From IMG/VR virus record IMGVR_UViG_3300050343_000232, positions 1 through 46,473 of that record: 46,473 nt of DNA; one strand, given 5' to 3'. Position 1 is the first letter of the stretch, and each line of letters begins with the position of its first letter. Under the pieces are notes generated by a model. That model did no database searches. It saw only the letters and a list, made by a program, of their open reading frames with translations, and was not told the origin of the DNA. Below, in pieces: positions 3,815 through 45,803 of the stretch. Origin of the DNA: a virus. Position numbers and translations under genes: made by a program.

Positions 3815-4222
3815 ATGGCTACACGAGGACTATACAAGTTCTACGAGGACGAAGACAGAATGCACGATAAGAAACCTACTGCGGTAATTTACCGACATTG
3901 GGACAACTACATTGAGGGTGGCGGACTAGATTTAAAAGAGTTTTTAGACTTTTGTAAATCAGGTACTTTTGATGGAAGAACAAGGGACGCAAGTTACCTA
4001 GCTTCTAAATATGTTGTTTATCTTGCACAAACTTTCGCAGGAGATTGGAATGAGAACCCACTTGATTTTATAAGTGTGGGAGTATGTTCCACAAATCCTG
4101 AGCTAGACATGTGGCAGGACTACACTTACCACATTATATGTGATGGAGATAAGGTTCCTGTATTTGTTGACTATGACGACAATGAGAAAGAACCATTAGA
4201 GGAAGCATTCGAAAAGATTTAA
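3815..4222 (+). CDS. Conserved phage-type protein, M-A-T-R-G-L-Y family (135 aa)
   Basis: ATG with AAGGAGAATACA upstream. The N-terminus (M-A-T-R-G-L-Y-K-F) followed by Y-R-H-W-D-N-Y (about residues 26-32) and a C-terminal Y-T-Y-H-I-I segment match a recurrent phage and bacterial family whose members begin M-x-T-R-x-L-Y and carry Y-x-H-W-D-G-Y. I know of no function for it. Sole gene between promoter copy 5 and the hairpin at 4237. Confidence 0.75.
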   Translation: MATRGLYKFYEDEDRMHDKKPTAVIYRHWDNYIEGGGLDLKEFLDFCKSGTFDGRTRDASYLASKYVVYLAQTFAGDWNENPLDFISVGVCSTNPELDMWQDYTYHIICDGDKVPVFVDYDDNEKEPLEEAFEKI

Positions 4223-4236
4223 TGCCTCTTGTGTTT

Positions 4237-4269
4237 ACTTTAGGGGGAGTGAAAGCTCCCCTTGAAAGT
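4237..4269 (+). terminator. Strong hairpin after 3815-4222, terminator-like without T-run
   Basis: GGGGAG-TGAAAG-CTCCCC, extended outward by ACTTT/GAAAGT. No T tract follows, so it may be a 3'-end protecting or processing hairpin. Confidence 0.6.
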
Positions 4270-4275
4270 AGTAAA

Positions 4276-4301
4276 GTCTGACTCTTTTAAGATCTTGAAT
4301 G
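4276..4301 (+). repeat. Recurring CTGACT element, copy 3
   Basis: GTCTGACTCTTTTAAGATCT followed by TGAATG; the closest relatives are copies 1 and 2. Confidence 0.5.
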
Positions 4302-4340
4302 GTATTAAAAATAAAAAAAAGAAAAAAAATATATTTTTTC

Positions 4341-4373
4341 TGTAACCTTTTTTAAAACTATCGAGTCTAAGTA
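4341..4373 (+). promoter_or_regulatory. Phage early promoter, copy 6 (drives non-coding RNA)
   Basis: TGTAACC 4341-4347, 18 bases, TCTAA 4366-4370. There is no ORF downstream before the next promoter at 4957, so the product is inferred to be RNA. Confidence 0.85.
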
Positions 4374-4377
4374 TTGT

Positions 4378-4935
4378 AGGCGAAAAAAACTACATTGGCT
4401 TTTTGACAATTGAATATATACAGTGCGTAGGTACTGAGTGAATGTCTTTAACTCTAATGAGATTAATACAGTTCTCAGGCGTATCATATTGGCTCTAATA
4501 CTATTTAATCCAATGGCTCTTAAATGGCTTTATCCAAGTTTCTGTTCGTGACCACTAGGCAGTGAATCTACGAGTTACTCCATGAAAATGGAAGTTAAGT
4601 TGCAACTCAAAGACTTCACATAGGTACTTACGCAGTGTATATAACTTGTAGCACATAGGTTATGTCTGCTTTGCAGTCAAGATTAAAGTTATGCCTGTGT
4701 GTTACAAGCTATTTATGAAGTATAGGGATTGCATTTGAAATTTTGCAAGGTAACCAAAGGTTCCTAATGAAGTAGATAGCTTGAAGCATATAAGAGGATA
4801 GGCAATAGCTTATGAGGTGGGATAGGTAGTTTCTCTTTAAGAGAATGTGTATTGTGTGTTTCAGGGTATTTATATAGGGTTCTAAGGGAAATTTCGATTT
4901 AATGAACTTAGCTAGTTAACCCAAATCGTGTAAAT
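4378..4935 (+). ncRNA. Candidate large structured non-coding RNA (~560 nt)
   Basis: There is no credible ORF on either strand across about 780 bases, yet the stretch has its own promoter. Complementary segments read by eye: 4415-4435 with 4623-4643 (21 bp, one mismatch, two G-U); 4438-4449 with 4609-4619 (11 bp, one bulge) continuing the same arm; 4488-4492 with 4510-4514; 4546-4556 with 4561-4573 (two 4-bp blocks); 4579-4583 with 4588-4592 closed by a GAAA loop; 4645-4659 with 4694-4708 (15 bp with G-U) holding an inner CTGC-TTT-GCAG; 4748-4755 with 4759-4765; 4831-4836 with 4840-4845; 4895-4900 with 4923-4928. The first and the 15-bp helices are adjacent and could stack. The 5' end is inferred from the -10 and the 3' end is uncertain. 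Size and style recall the ornate phage RNAs GOLLD and ROOL; homology is not shown. No T-run terminator follows. Confidence 0.7.
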
Positions 4936-4956
4936 ATCTAAAAAAATTAGATTATC

Positions 4957-4989
4957 TGTAACCTTTAGGGGTTATGGATAGTCTAAATA
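4957..4989 (+). promoter_or_regulatory. Phage early promoter, copy 7
   Basis: TGTAACC 4957-4963, 18 bases, TCTAA 4982-4986, upstream of the gene at 5012. Confidence 0.85.
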
Positions 4990-5011
4990 ATAAGCAACCA
5001 AAGGAAAACAA

Positions 5012-5272
5012 ATGATTACAGTTAATGGGTTAGATTATGACCTACTTTATATTAATAGATTAAACAATAATGAGCTTGAAGAAGCCATGATCGATATCAG
5101 TCATGCTCTAAAGTATGATTGGGACAGTAGAGAGAACCAAAATAATTATAGGCTTCTATCCCTGGAGCTTGAAAGAGTAATTCTAAATGAAAGAAATGGA
5201 TTTATTTTTGTGGATTCTTTAGAAGATTTGGTTACACATGTAACCTTTATGCCACAAACTGAGTCTAAATAA
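5012..5272 (+). CDS. Hypothetical protein (86 aa)
   Basis: ATG with AAAGGAAAACAA upstream. Acidic, helical, no Cys or membrane segment; no family recognised. Its last ~11 codons overlap promoter copy 8 for the next gene, so the C-terminal residues are constrained by the promoter. Confidence 0.75.
   Translation: MITVNGLDYDLLYINRLNNNELEEAMIDISHALKYDWDSRENQNNYRLLSLELERVILNERNGFIFVDSLEDLVTHVTFMPQTESK
5239..5271 (+). promoter_or_regulatory. Phage early promoter, copy 8 (inside coding sequence)
   Basis: TGTAACC 5239-5245, 18 bases, TCTAA 5264-5268, inside the 3' end of 5012-5272. The -35 block is half of an inverted repeat GGTTACA-CA-TGTAACC (5230-5245). Confidence 0.8.
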
Positions 5273-5285
5273 CATAGGAGGAAAA

Positions 5286-5537
5286 ATGGACAATGTAATA
5301 AATATAAATGGTACTGAAGTTGAGGGTACTAAAGTTACCGAAGAAAGAATAGTTATGTGGGATATGCAAAATGCTAAACCCGATACTCCATACAATGGAG
5401 GCTATTACTTCAGAAGTGATTTAAAAGATTTTGTAGAAAGAATACAAAGTCAAGGCAACAAAGTTGTGGGTATAGTCATAGACGATACTTACAACCTTGA
5501 ACTAATAGTACAAGAGGAAGAACAGGAGGAAGAATGA
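5286..5537 (+). CDS. Hypothetical protein with acidic tail (83 aa)
   Basis: ATG with TAGGAGGAAAA upstream. A beta-rich N-terminus is followed by a helical part and a poly-Glu tail (residues about 75-83). It overlaps the next gene by ATGA. Function unknown. Confidence 0.75.
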   Translation: MDNVININGTEVEGTKVTEERIVMWDMQNAKPDTPYNGGYYFRSDLKDFVERIQSQGNKVVGIVIDDTYNLELIVQEEEQEEE

Positions 5538-6962: not shown

Positions 6963-7202
6963 ATGAAAAACATTATAAAAGTCTTAGTGACCGATATAAA
7001 GGAACTAAGCGAATTAGACAAAAAAAGACTAATAATATTTCATGATAAATATGGAGTATATGACAAATGGATAATGCGAATCGCATTCTTTCAAATGTTA
7101 GTTTTAGGGTTTGGCTTCGGTATCTTCATTAATGAAGTTTTCGGGTTCACTAATATAGCGTTAGGGTTTACCCTATTAAGTTGGTGGAGTTCTAAGGTTT
7201 AG
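6963..7202 (+). CDS. Small membrane protein (79 aa)
   Basis: A charged N-terminal ~35 residues (K/D/E-rich helix) is followed by hydrophobic segments at about 39-56 and 60-74, consistent with one or two membrane helices and a short basic end (S-S-K-V). No strong Shine-Dalgarno and no TGTAACC promoter nearby, so the start and regulation are less certain than for its neighbours. Confidence 0.6.
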   Translation: MKNIIKVLVTDIKELSELDKKRLIIFHDKYGVYDKWIMRIAFFQMLVLGFGFGIFINEVFGFTNIALGFTLLSWWSSKV

Positions 7203-39426: not shown

Positions 39427-42400
39427 ATGGCAGCAAAAAATCCAATAAGAGGCGATTATTCGGGTTCCGATTTAGTCGGTTTTGCAGAGTTTCAAGCTTC
39501 AGACTTTATAGCAATAGCAGATGGTGGTACAGGTGCAATTTCTTCAGCAGGTGCTAGAACTGCTTTAGGAATAGCAATAGGTTCTGATGTACAAGCTTAC
39601 GATCCACAACTTACAGATGTCGCTAACTTAACTCCTACAGATGGTGGTTTTATAGTTGGAGATGGTTCAAACTTTGTTTTAGAATCAGGAAATACAGCTA
39701 GAGCTTCATTAGGACTTTCTTCTTCAGATAGTCCACAATTTACAGGTCTAACATTAACTTCTATATCTATTGATAGTGTTACCTTATCTACAATAGTTAC
39801 AGAATCCGAAGGTATGTCTGGATCAGACAATGATACCTCTGTTCCAACAACTGCAGCAATAATAGACTACATATCCAATACTGTTGATACTACAGAAGAA
39901 GTACAAGACATTGTTGGGGCTATGGTCACAAGCAATACCGAAACATTAATCGGTGTTACTTATGACGATAGTGATGGTACTTTAGACTTCGTTGTTGATA
40001 ACGACTTAGCTAATTACTCCAATACAAACTCAGCTTTTATAACAAAATCAGGGATAAGTGTTACAGACTCAGGTGGAGATGGAAGTTTAAGTTATGATAA
40101 TTCAACAGGGGTTATCACTTATACAGGTCCTAGCTCTACAGAAGTAAGAGCCCATTTATCAGCTGGTACAGGCGTTTCTTATTCTTCAGGTCAATTTAGC
40201 ATTGGTCAAGATGTAGGAACTACTGCTGATGTAACCTTTAACAGTGTTGCAGGAAACCTAACAGGAAATGTTACAGGAACTGTTTCTTCTATTGCTAACC
40301 ATGATACAGATAGCTTAAGTGAAGGAACAACAAATCTTTATTACACAAGTGCTAGAGCTAACTCAGACTTCGATACAAGATTAGCTACCAAAGATACAGG
40401 AGATTTATCAGAGGGTAGTAATTTATACTTCACTAACGCAAGAGTTGATACTGAAATAGACAGCTATCTTAGTGGAGGGACAGGAGTTGCTGTATCTTCA
40501 GGAGCAATAAGCATAGGACAAGCTGTTGCCACAACCTCAGATGTTACTTTTAATGACTTAACAGTTTCAGGAGATTTAACAGTAAGTGGTACTACTACAA
40601 CAGTAAATACAGAGACCATTGCTTTAGCTGACAACATAATAGTTTTTAATTCAAATGCTACAGGTTCTGCTACAGAAAATGCAGGAATAGAAATTGAGCG
40701 TGGCGATGATACTAACAAAACTTTAATTTGGGATGAGAGTGCTGATAAGTGGACAGTAGGATCAGAGACATTTATTGCAGGGACTTTTGAAGGAGCCTTG
40801 ACAGGAAATGTCACAGGTACTGTATCTAGTATTGCTAATCATAGCACTAGCGATTTATCAGAAGGCACCAACCTTTATTACACCTCAACAAGATTTAATA
40901 CAGCATTTACAGGAAAATCTACTTCAGATTTATCAGAGGGAACAAACCTCTATTACACAACTGCTAGATTTGATAGTGCTTTATCAGGCAAGACAACAAC
41001 TAACTTGTCAGAAGGTACCAATTTATATTTTACAAACGAGAGAGTAGATGACAGGCTCAATAACTTATTAGTCGCAGGTAGCAATATAACTCTTACCTAT
41101 GACGACACTGCTAATACTCTTACTATTGCAGGAGTTGAAGATAACTTTGCTAACAATACAACAGACGACTTAGCTGAGGGATCAACTAATTTATACTTTA
41201 CAAACGCTAGAGCTCAATCTGCTCTAACAGGCGGAACAGGAATTTCTAATACTTCAGGAACACTAGCAGTAGACTTTACTGAATTTGATACAGATAATGT
41301 TGTAGAAGGAAGTTCTAGCCTATACTTTACAAATGCTAGAAGTAGAGGTTCAGTATCTATAGCTTCAGGTTCAGGTTTAACTTACAATAGTTCTACAGGA
41401 GAATTTGGAACTTCTGCTATCCCTAATGCACAGTTGGCCAATAGTGCAATAACTATAAACTCAAATGCAGTTTCTCTAGGTGGATCAGTTAGTTTAGACA
41501 CTGATGACATTACAGAGGGTAATAATCTTTACTACACAACAGGAAGATTTGATACACAATTAGCTACAAAAGATACAGATAATTTAACCGAGGGAACAAC
41601 TAATCTGTACTACACAGATGCTAGAGTCGAAAGCTATATTAGTGGCGGAACAGGTATTGATTTTTCTTCAGGTGCGATATCTATAGACTCAACAGTAGTA
41701 ACTGAAAGCTCAACAGATACACTTACTAATAAAACAATTAGCTTTGAAGACAACACAGCTATTGTTACTTTTGCTGTTACTGTATCAAATGCTTCAGGTA
41801 CAAATAAATATCTTTTAGATGGAGAAAGTTCTGCAAGTGTTCAATTAATACCAGGAGTTACATACAAGTTTGACCAATCAGATAACTCTAACTCTGGACA
41901 CCCTTTTGCTTTATCAACAAGTGAAGATGGAACCAACTACACAACAGGAGTAACTACTAATGGAACAGCAGGTACTTCAGGTGCTTATACTCAAATAGTC
42001 GTAGATGGTGCTACTGCAGATAGATTATTCTACAAATGTACAGCACACTCAGGAATGGGTGGCGGTGTATTAGAAGTACAAGGAAGTGCAATAGTTGAAT
42101 TTGCTGTAACTGTTGCAAATGTTAGTGGTAACAAGTATCACTTAGATGGGGAAACATCAGCAAGCGTACAACTCATACCTGGAATGGTATATAGATTTAA
42201 TCAATCAGACTCTTCAAACTCAGGACACCCATTTAAATTATCCTCAACAAAAGATGGCACACATAACAGTGGATCTGAATATACAACAAAAGTAACAACC
42301 TCAGGTACTCCAGGTTCTGCAGGTGCATATACTCAGATTGTTGTTGACGCAGCAACTTCAGATTCTTTATATTACTATTGTTCTTCACACTCAGGAATGG

Positions 42401-43266
42401 GTGGAGATGCTGTTATATCTGTTCAGGGTGTTTCTCTAGCAGATAGTGATACTGACGATTTAACAGAAGGCAGTTCTAACCTTTACTTTACAAATGCAAG
42501 GGCTAGAAGTGCAATATCTGTAACTGATAGTGGTGGAGATGGTTCTCTATCATACAACAGTTCTACAGGAGTAATAACCTTTACAGGTCCATCTGCTTCT
42601 GAAGTTAGAGCACACATATCTGTAACAGATTCAGGTGGAGATGGTTCTTTAGCTTATAACTCAACTACAGGCGTAATAACCTACACAGGACCTAGTGCTT
42701 CAGAAACAAGAGCTCATTTTACAGCAGGAACAGGTATTGGAATCTCTTCAGGAGAAATCAGTATAGGTCAAGCGGTTGCTACAACCTCCGATGTAACATT
42801 CAACGATCTTATCGTATCAGGAGATCTGACAGTCTCAGGAACAACTACAACAGTTAACACTGAAACAATAAACCTTGCAGATAATGTAATTACTTTAAAC
42901 AGCAACGAAACAGGAACACCAAGTCAAAATGGTGGTATCGAAATAGAGCGTGGTACTTCAACTAATAAAACTCTTATTTGGAATGAAACTGATGACAAAT
43001 GGACAATAGGTTCTGAAACTTTTGTAGCAGGAACTGTAGAAGCTAACTTAACAGGAAATGTAACAGGTAATGTTGCAGGAAATGTAACAGGAACAGTATC
43101 TGATATATCTAATCACGATACAGATAGCCTTACAGAAGGTAGTAGCAATCTATATTTTAGTAACGAAAGAGTTGATGATAGAGTTAGCTCTTTACTAACA
43201 GCAGGAACTAATGTTTCACTAACTTATGATGACGCAGCTAATACCTTAACAATTGCATTCAACTGA
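39427..43266 (+). CDS. Giant repeat tail fibre, first open segment (1279 aa before frameshift)
   Basis: At least eleven copies of the L-x-E-G-x-N-L-Y-(Y/F)-T-x-x-R motif, each followed by acidic linkers, and two copies of a ~125-residue module (about 40460-40850 and 42720-43130) with E-I-E-R-G and D-K-W-T-(V/I)-G-S-E-T-F. Two tandem copper-protein-like domains lie at 41761-42430. The frame ends at 43264-43266 only because of one extra T near 43257; without it translation continues into the next open segment, so the real gene very probably runs to 45803 (about 2100 residues). Extended, trimeric, host-contacting fibre. Confidence 0.85.
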   Translation: MAAKNPIRGDYSGSDLVGFAEFQASDFIAIADGGTGAISSAGARTALGIAIGSDVQAYDPQLTDVANLTPTDGGFIVGDGSNFVLESGNTARASLGLSSSDSPQFTGLTLTSISIDSVTLSTIVTESEGMSGSDNDTSVPTTAAIIDYISNTVDTTEEVQDIVGAMVTSNTETLIGVTYDDSDGTLDFVVDNDLANYSNTNSAFITKSGISVTDSGGDGSLSYDNSTGVITYTGPSSTEVRAHLSAGTGVSYSSGQFSIGQDVGTTADVTFNSVAGNLTGNVTGTVSSIANHDTDSLSEGTTNLYYTSARANSDFDTRLATKDTGDLSEGSNLYFTNARVDTEIDSYLSGGTGVAVSSGAISIGQAVATTSDVTFNDLTVSGDLTVSGTTTTVNTETIALADNIIVFNSNATGSATENAGIEIERGDDTNKTLIWDESADKWTVGSETFIAGTFEGALTGNVTGTVSSIANHSTSDLSEGTNLYYTSTRFNTAFTGKSTSDLSEGTNLYYTTARFDSALSGKTTTNLSEGTNLYFTNERVDDRLNNLLVAGSNITLTYDDTANTLTIAGVEDNFANNTTDDLAEGSTNLYFTNARAQSALTGGTGISNTSGTLAVDFTEFDTDNVVEGSSSLYFTNARSRGSVSIASGSGLTYNSSTGEFGTSAIPNAQLANSAITINSNAVSLGGSVSLDTDDITEGNNLYYTTGRFDTQLATKDTDNLTEGTTNLYYTDARVESYISGGTGIDFSSGAISIDSTVVTESSTDTLTNKTISFEDNTAIVTFAVTVSNASGTNKYLLDGESSASVQLIPGVTYKFDQSDNSNSGHPFALSTSEDGTNYTTGVTTNGTAGTSGAYTQIVVDGATADRLFYKCTAHSGMGGGVLEVQGSAIVEFAVTVANVSGNKYHLDGETSASVQLIPGMVYRFNQSDSSNSGHPFKLSSTKDGTHNSGSEYTTKVTTSGTPGSAGAYTQIVVDAATSDSLYYYCSSHSGMGGDAVISVQGVSLADSDTDDLTEGSSNLYFTNARARSAISVTDSGGDGSLSYNSSTGVITFTGPSASEVRAHISVTDSGGDGSLAYNSTTGVITYTGPSASETRAHFTAGTGIGISSGEISIGQAVATTSDVTFNDLIVSGDLTVSGTTTTVNTETINLADNVITLNSNETGTPSQNGGIEIERGTSTNKTLIWNETDDKWTIGSETFVAGTVEANLTGNVTGNVAGNVTGTVSDISNHDTDSLTEGSSNLYFSNERVDDRVSSLLTAGTNVSLTYDDAANTLTIAFN
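41761..42430 (+). other. Two tandem cupredoxin-like domains in the fibre
   Basis: Each ~110-residue unit has Y-(K/R)-F-(D/N)-Q-S-D, S-G-H-P-F and, near its end, C-x2-H-S-G-M-G-G. His, Cys, His and Met are the ligand set of type 1 copper sites, although C-x2-H-x2-M is shorter than the plastocyanin spacing. This domain is frequent in marine phage fibres; copper binding is inferred. Confidence 0.6.
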
Positions 43267-43936
43267 TACAAATACACAACTTTCACAAGAACAAGTAGAA
43301 GACTTTGTTGCAGGAGTCGTTACTGCAGGTTCAGGAATATCTGTTACTTATGATGACACTGCAGGAACATTAACAGTTGCGAACACAGCTTCAACAAGTA
43401 CAGAAGATGTACAAGATATTGTCGGATCACAGATTGTAACAAATGGTACACACACAGGTATATCATTTGCTTATGACGATGCTAATGATGGTGCTATAGA
43501 TGCAACAGTTTCATTGTCAGGATTTAGCACAAGTAACTTATCTGAGGGAACTAATCTTTACTACACCCAAGCAAGAGCAAATACAGATTTTGACACAAAG
43601 CTAGCAGCAGCAGATACAGCAGACTTATCAGAAGGTACAAATCTTTACTACACAAATGCTAGAGCTGATGCAAGAATTGCAGCTGCAATATTTGAAGACT
43701 TAAGTAATGTAGGTATATCTACTCCAGGTTCTTCTGACGATGGTAAAGTCGTTTCATGGGATAACTCTGCAGGAGCTTTTGCTCTATCTTCTGTCTCAGG
43801 ACTATCAGGATCAGGAGAAACAAACACAGCTTCCAACATTGGTACAGCAGGTGTAGGACTCTTTGATGGTAAAGTCGGAGAAGACTTACAGTTTAAGAAA
43901 ATAAATGCTGGTTCTAGCAAAAATAACAATTACTGA
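43253..43936 (+). CDS. Giant repeat tail fibre, second open segment (frameshifted continuation)
   Basis: The true junction is a single inserted T near 43257: deleting it joins L-T-I-A to S-T-D-T-N-T-Q-L in one frame. The segment contains two more L-S-E-G-T-N-L-Y-Y-T repeats. It is broken again near 43919 by an extra A in a run of A; removing it gives S-K-I-T-I-T-D-D-T. Not an independent gene, despite an in-frame ATG at 43253. Confidence 0.8.
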   Translation: MHSTDTNTQLSQEQVEDFVAGVVTAGSGISVTYDDTAGTLTVANTASTSTEDVQDIVGSQIVTNGTHTGISFAYDDANDGAIDATVSLSGFSTSNLSEGTNLYYTQARANTDFDTKLAAADTADLSEGTNLYYTNARADARIAAAIFEDLSNVGISTPGSSDDGKVVSWDNSAGAFALSSVSGLSGSGETNTASNIGTAGVGLFDGKVGEDLQFKKINAGSSKNNNY

Positions 43937-45803
43937 TGATACAACTAACAATGAAGTAGACATTGACTTTGGTACAGTTTCTATAGCTGATTTAAGTGAT
44001 GTTGCATAACAACAGGCTGTATGCTAGATGGTCAAGCTCTTATCTACAGTACAATGCTAACTCTAGATTCCAACCAGGTAGATGTCACTGCTACACTAAG
44101 TGGCCTTACCGATACTACCATAAGTTCATTACTAGCTAAGGATCAATTCATTACAATATAACGGTTCAGCTTGGGTTAATGCAACTGTAGATTCTGATGA
44201 TATTGACAGAAGGTTCAACCAATCTTATACTATACAAACGCTAGAGCACAAGCTTCTATTACAGGTGGTACAGGTATCTGCAAATACATCAGGTATCTGG
44301 ACTTGCTATAGATTCAAGTACAGAGTCAATTTACAGACAGCTTCTATACTGAAGGTTCAAGCATTAGCTAATAGTTCTATACACAGTTACACGATGGATC
44401 TAACTCCACTGCTACTAGCAACTTGGAGGCAACTATTACAATCTAACAGGAAGGTTCTTCTAACCTTGATTTCACTAGAGGTTGCTGAGAGTTGATACAG
44501 AAATTGATTCATATTTAACAGGTAGGATTACAGGTGTCACATGACTCAGGTGGAGCAATATCTATTGGACCTTAGGCAGTTGCAACAACTTCTGATGTAA
44601 CCTGTTAATGGCGATTTAACAGCTATAACTGGTAGACTTAACAGTTTCCGGTACTACTACTACTGTCAATTCACAGAGACAGTAAATATTAGCTGATAGT
44701 ACAATTACTCTTAACTCTGATGCTACCGGAACGCCAGCAACTGAAGATGGTGGTATTGAAATTGAGAGAGGTAGTGCCACTAATAAGACACTTAGTTTGG
44801 GATGAAACTACATGATAAGTGGACAGTTGGTTCCGAAACATTTGTTGCTGCTACTTTTGAAGGTACTGCTACATCACTTGCAACTACAGTTTTACTACAG
44901 GTCTTAACTGCTGACAGCTCTCCTGCTGATGACGACCTACGTTATCGTTTACGACTACAAGTGCAGGAGTGCCTACAAGAAAGTAGCTAAATCTAATACT
45001 TCGCTGCTAGTGCTAGTGGAGGTGCCTTAACTGGTGCATTAGACTTCACACTTATCTGATACAACTAGCTTCTGATCCAATAGAATTTCTTAAACCTTGG
45101 TAGCAACAGGTACTGATGTCGAGGTCACTCTAACTGATGGTACTGTAGATCCTATACAAATCACTTCTACAAGTGCAAGTGCTACAGCATTTCTCAGATG
45201 GTGACAACGACACCAAGATTCAGGTAGAAGCTACAACTTCTGATGCTGATGACATTAGAATCTTTACTGCAGGTTCAGAAAGATTGCGAATTGAATCTGA
45301 TGGTGTCGTCGATGTCAAGTCTGCAAAACTTAAAATTAATGGTGGTGCAGGCACAAGTGGTCAAGTCCTTAACTACAGGTGGCGATCTGGAACTATTTCT
45401 TGGGCTGACTACAGTTTCTTCATGTAGCTGCTAACGACTTAACTAGATGCAAGCAACTTCAGGACTTGCTTCAGGTGACAGCTTGGTTTTTGATGGTTCA
45501 AACTTATGTTCCTCAAAGACCTACAAATATAGAAGACGCTGATGGCGATACCAGGAGTTCATGTAGAAGAAAGCTGCTGACGAAGATAAAATAAGATTTG
45601 ATACCGGTGGCAGCTGAGAGATTTGATTATGGACACACAATGTTACCGCTTCAGCTACAGGGTGGTTTCTTCATTACATAGACACAACTCTTGCTTCAGG
45701 AGAAACTTTTTCAATTAGCCTCAGAACACAGGAACAGTAGCAGCAGGTCCAATAGATATAGAAGGAACATGTAGACATAGCAGGAACATTGGTAGTCGTA
45801 TAG
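43937..45803 (+). pseudogene. Giant repeat tail fibre, third segment with many small indels
   Basis: The reading frame is lost every ~15-60 bases, but correcting 1-2 base insertions (for example an extra G near 44204 and an extra A near 44226), plus a few deletions, restores fibre sequence: another L-Y-Y-T-N-A-R repeat, a third copy of the ~125-residue module (about 44510-44880), D-G-D-N-D-T-K-I-Q-V-E, S-E-R-L-R-I-E-S-D-G, G-T-S-G-Q-V-L and an end ...I-D-I-E-G-T-V-D-I-A-G-T-L-V-V-V stop at 45801-45803. Because meaning is conserved at protein level while single bases are inserted, uncorrected read errors are more likely than true decay. Confidence 0.7.

Follow-up and report, generated by a model that had tools for sequence, protein, structure and literature searches.

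An ORF-free, promoter-driven phage region folds into hairpin modules of an RNA family absent from Rfam

In the early mRNA of phage T7, long intercistronic hairpins are cut by host RNase III. REP/REPIN sequences and the Rickettsia palindromic elements are short palindromes that spread between sites, and the bacterial Y RNAs, which are partners of Ro60, combine a stem formed from both ends with a variable effector domain that is sometimes tRNA-like. GOLLD and ROOL are phage-borne, structured, non-coding RNAs, and the linker region of GOLLD sometimes holds phage tRNAs (PMC12286853). Here, we analyzed a locus with similarities to each of these systems in a 46,473-nt stretch of viral DNA from IMG/VR (from here on, the window), whose MCP and terminase match any deposited phage at below 60%. 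The samples concerned are presumably marine, based on an initial annotation of this DNA and on IMG sample numbers. WhiB, a marker of actinobacterial phages, was searched for and is absent. The long genes at 40054-45245, near the right-hand edge of the window, contain many diverged internal repeats and possibly encode tail fibre proteins.

The initial annotation proposed a promoter-driven, structured, novel non-coding RNA of ~560 nt at 4378-4935, and our analysis confirmed that this region is promoter-driven, ORF-free, and strongly folding. In the ORF listing of the window, the plus strand is free of ORFs of ≥50 aa from 4222 to 5012, and the sole candidate in the region is a 60-aa ORF on the minus strand (4305-4487). 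The promoter-like element TGTAACC-N17-GTCTAA occurs in 10 exact copies with identical spacing in the window, while 0.02 are expected by chance, which supports that the promoter is real; the copy preceding the RNA, previously numbered sixth, is the fifth in plus order. By our count, the remaining plus-strand copies are mostly located 20-30 nt upstream of a start codon, while the copy at 4341 has no used start codon for >600 nt. The 10 sites span 577 to 22480, most of them shortly upstream of small genes, and one copy is on the minus strand ahead of methylase genes.

The plus-strand RNA 4378-4935 has a predicted folding energy of −152.3 kcal/mol (z = −4.42), and 0 of 100 shuffled sequences reached an equally low value, in agreement with the proposal that it is structured beyond chance. 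The minus strand gave z = −2.67. A fold z-score alone would not be decisive for a structured RNA; the decisive evidence is the comparison with relatives. The region consists of at least four modules strung one after another, R1, D, Y, and R2, in the following setting:

3815-4222, plus strand: upstream gene of 135 aa, 56% identical to the gene syntenic with R1 in the related phage L050
4341-4370, plus strand: promoter-like element that precedes the RNA, 1 of the 10 copies
4378-4390, plus strand: conserved AGGCRAAAAAAAC directly after the promoter, with 1 base different in L050
4415-4643, plus strand: module R1, with a homologue at L050:4977-5207
4637-4716, plus strand: module D, X-type hairpin with a long closing stem and the apex GUUAUGUCUGCUUUGCAGUCAAGAUUAAAG (R3 model, E = 2.4e-12, training-set member)
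4708-4780, plus strand: Y-type linker, GCUAUUUAU..AGUA..GAA-GUAGAUAGC, which has arms in common with D and R2 (Y1 model, E = 0.0044)
4772-4873, plus strand: module R2, X-type hairpin with the 5' arm GUAGAUAGCUUGAAGCAUAU (R3 model, E = 5.3e-10, training-set member)
4878-4956, plus strand: stretch 3' of R2 that reaches the next promoter, in which no intrinsic terminator was found
4957-4986, plus strand: next copy of TGTAACC-N17-GTCTAA, which serves the downstream gene
5286-5537, plus strand: downstream gene of 83 aa, 40% identical to its L050 homologue

The conserved AGGCRAAAAAAAC is probably near the 5' end of the RNA. The modules do not form a single ornate RNA as had been proposed but are separable, and elsewhere they are found singly or in other combinations: L050 has only R1, L238 only the D hairpin, and L235 has D-Y1-R2, where 2410-2680 matches window positions 4630-4878 in the same order.

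Module R1 was compared in two sequences. L050 (G012) is a related phage with an 85% identical terminase, in which the R1 homologue follows the same promoter and leads directly into the homologue of the window gene at 5286-5537. The long-range helix drawn in the initial annotation is present; it consists of 4415-4422/4636-4643 plus 4424-4435/4623-4634, i.e., 20 pairs around one G.G mismatch (4423/4635) that is conserved in L050. The closing helix of L050 differs in sequence, and yet all 20 positions are paired, with both bases changed in 9 of them. Over the whole module, 11 of 30 pairs are double-changed between these two sequences and 0 of 30 are broken, while only 27-48% of positions were paired in slid control alignments. 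Over 13-14 bases, the loop segments show a single difference or none; conserved are the segments ATACAGTTCTCAG (4466-4478) and GCAGTGAATCTACG (4559-4572), the hairpin loop ATCCAATGGCTCT (4508-4520), and the hairpin CTCCA..TGGAA (4578-4593). An 11-bp helix previously drawn at 4438-4449/4609-4619 is part of the MFE fold of the window but is not kept in L050. Exact-pattern searches with R1 segments returned only the contig of L050, and an R1 covariance model built from these two sequences gave no further credible match in the loci searched; the collections searched may leave out near relatives of the window.

D and R2 connect the window to a far larger group. The entry to this group was L075, where a 14-base match marks a 26-pair hairpin (z = −7.5) that lies downstream of a gene homologous to the window gene at 3815-4222. 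Scanning IMG/VR with both arms identified 31 stretches, many of which are hairpins having the same stem, and >130 distinct hairpins of this type, referred to as X, were gathered. In 33 distinct X hairpins, stem positions 1-21 are nearly always paired; positions 1-12 are almost invariant, and double changes occur at positions 13-18 (except 15) and 21-22. Counted as raw cells with kinship ignored, there are 59 double changes compared to 19.7 in shuffles. A G.U or U.G pair is present at position 1 in 31, at position 15 in 29, and at position 20 in 27 of the 33 hairpins. A further, independent set comprising 76 arm pairs, obtained via Y1, confirmed pairing and covariation as well as the wobbles at positions 1 and 20, while position 15 was more mixed (34 G.U, 27 A-U, and 13 G-C). 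In 73 of 73 X hairpins adjoining a Y1, the sense strand has a more stable fold than the opposite strand. The stem previously noted at 4645-4659/4694-4708 lies within D and comprises 16 pairs (4645-4660/4693-4708). Because D and R2 are both among the 30 R3 model sequences, their low E-values arise partly by construction. However, the D apex recurs in L235, L238, and L249, and the R2 apex in L235 and L200, and together with the array homologues, these apices provide independent support for the membership of D and R2.

While the X stems are conserved in sequence, the apices are highly diverse, and 139 distinct apices of 21-101 nt fell into 94 clusters, including 66 singletons. In one cluster, the same pair was seen as U-A, G-C, and A-U, and other clusters have swapped stems as judged by eye, suggesting that apices are under structural constraint, with compensatory stem changes in some clusters. 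Two 131-nt X hairpins (L167 6027-6162 and L170 5787-5922) have an apex resembling an H-type pseudoknot, with the compensatory change GUAAGG/CCUUAC versus CUAAGG/CCUUAG. A candidate likeness of the D apex in L080 (GAGGAAAGUC) to RNase P RNA was dropped, as it had no Rfam match.

Between one X hairpin and the next, the order of the arms is reversed, and they can pair with each other over the spacer. One type of spacer, Y1, has the form GCUAUCUAU-nAGUARGA-stem-GCCCUGUU-stem-CYGAAM-GUAGRUAGC, in which, by our reading, AGUA facing GAA would fit the bulged-G (loop E) pattern. A scan of IMG/VR with the Y1 pattern identified 101 stretches (80 among the matches listed). Its inner helix covaries strongly, with 62 double-change cells over 36 aligned sequences compared to 18.8 in shuffled alignments (raw counts, kinship ignored). 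Of the 81 Y1 elements that have enough sequence after them, 73 are followed immediately by an X hairpin using the same arm, compared to 0 of 115 in a shuffled downstream control. In the window, 4708-4780 is the best match of a Y1 model built without it; it fits less well and does not have GCCCUGUU, and a canonical Y1 occupies the equivalent place in L235. The RNA is an alternation of X hairpins and Y elements that have closing arms in common, so that an arm has a possible pairing partner on either side. Upstream in L171, L080, and L179, we observed another recurrent hairpin motif in array spacers, (stem)UAGGG-n-GGAAACG(stem).

D and R2, and probably the more weakly fitting Y, are members of an RNA family that is absent from Rfam and present in many uncultivated phage contigs, and the window region almost certainly encodes a structured RNA of this X/Y1 family. 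Using all Rfam 15 covariance models, including those for GOLLD, ROOL, and OLE, at gathering score, we found no match other than tRNAs in L109; at E-values up to 5, there was nothing credible, and the only match was to mir-239 (E = 4.5), a chance match. Neither the window RNA nor a three-hairpin array had a genuine blastn match among 50,697 deposited phage records. In a pattern scan of genome contigs, the matches look random by fold and were rejected. The titles and abstracts listed in searches of the open-access literature contained no description of the family. These results agree with the proposed novelty of the RNA, its promoter-driven, structured, and non-coding nature is likewise supported, and the compensatory changes in R1 together with the covariation of the X and Y1 stems bear out the expectation that homologues would show such changes.

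Over 81 nt, module D matches L238:2123-2203 at 97.5% identity, while the window and L238 otherwise share one weak blastn match that resembles low-complexity coding sequence. This likeness is best read as a recent transfer of the hairpin alone, and the finding of a near-identical D in an otherwise dissimilar contig suggests that the units move as cassettes. Moreover, two sequences serve as X apex in one phage and as spacer in another. In L109, a tRNA-Asn(GTT) lies inside a palindrome with family arm sequence (7083-7173; X model, E = 0.0004). This phage has 17 tRNA genes, and the other tRNA flanks inspected are without such arms; because the locus was chosen by its arm pattern, we consider this arrangement suggestive.

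Across 68 loci, the median length of the ORF-free gap that holds the array is 366 nt; the genes immediately following it belong to 36 families and those immediately preceding it to 35. Given this variety, the array does not serve as the leader of any single gene. In L169, L172, L176, L178, and others, 1-3 kb downstream of the array, a putative AAA ATPase precedes a protein with a DxSGS (von Willebrand A-like) motif, a pair that resembles CobS/CobT.

The covariation of X stems and Y1, the retained G.U pairs, the compensatory changes in R1, and the higher stability of the sense strand argue for selection at the RNA level. Based on these data, we favor, with a probability of roughly 0.4, that the arrays give rise to stable structured RNAs that are protected by their stems and act in trans. 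In this mechanism, the phage would transcribe the array from its own promoter, the long stems would protect the apical RNA domains, and putative cleavage by host RNase III would release them as stable small structured RNAs, which may act in trans, e.g., by binding factors of the host or the phage as platforms or decoys; the units would be swapped between phages as cassettes. This reading is supported by the lack of a tie between the array and any one gene, the structural constraint on apices, the separate promoters of the RNA and the next gene in the window, and the movement of D. Against it, 52 of 90 X groups have a final hairpin that stops 11-39 nt short of a start codon (ATG) that has a Shine-Dalgarno-like sequence, the position 15 wobble is less constant in the 76-pair set, and a search of 29 records for a phage-encoded RNase III found none. 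The probability is only 0.4 because both the non-leader context and this proximity need explaining. The complete system, in which swappable RNA domains between conserved arms with alternating partners are exchanged horizontally and act in trans on the host, is a tentative proposal.

The proximity to start sites is what would be expected if the arrays were cis-acting elements for processing or mRNA stability, in which cutting of the hairpins by RNase III leaves the mRNA that follows with a 5' end that is defined and protected, and the apices are largely passive. Stems of 20-24 bp, the length of the closing stems of D and R2, would suit RNase III, and in L235, single X hairpins precede consecutive small genes. 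We regard this explanation as possible but unlikely: Y1 almost always has just one strong locus in a genome, the apices covary, the downstream genes differ, and the next gene in the window has its own promoter. That the arrays are selfish mobile palindromes acting at the DNA level, with the RNA fold as a by-product, appears improbable: the near-identical D in dissimilar contigs and the sequences found once as apex and once as spacer fit this explanation, but the conserved G.U pairs would be mismatches in a DNA cruciform, and the strand preference, the covarying Y1 inner helix with its bulged-G-like loop, and the usual single locus per genome argue against it. Finally, a switching RNA, in which co-transcriptional exchange of X and Y pairing senses a signal or controls downstream expression, is very unlikely, since the X fold is favored by 6-16 kcal/mol in most other arrays tested and there is no conserved downstream gene, even though the arms mostly alternate, the MFE folds of L168 and L169 already have the Y pairing, and the near-invariance of the outer 12 stem positions next to covarying positions 13-22 is expected for arms that have to fit two partners.

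The findings add a sizeable, covariation-supported phage RNA family to those in current Rfam, with an unusual architecture of alternating, arm-sharing elements and unit exchange between phages. The compact modules make the role of phage structured RNAs amenable to direct experiment.

Compared to the described systems, the arrays are similar to the T7 RNase III signals in having long hairpins between small early genes, often close upstream of a start site, but differ in their conserved stem sequence and wobbles, diverse structured apices, and Y1 motif; a phage-encoded RNase III was found in 0 of 29 records. They share with REP/REPIN and the Rickettsia elements the spread of short palindromes between sites but differ in RNA-level covariation and kept wobbles. 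Also, many dispersed copies per genome, as in REP/REPIN, were not found: a Y1 match was present in 25 of 25 longer records searched, mostly as a single strong locus, and X/Y1 matches cluster at one locus per record in most records, with a few extra X hairpins in some contigs. The likeness to bacterial Y RNAs lies in the end-formed stem around a variable domain; the idea of a Ro60 partner was rejected, because TROVE was found in 0 of 17 records, several of which are fragments. The likeness to GOLLD and ROOL that had been pointed out holds in that all are phage-borne, structured, and non-coding, while homology is not supported by any sequence or covariance match, and where GOLLD and ROOL have one fixed fold, the window RNA is a chain of separable hairpins.
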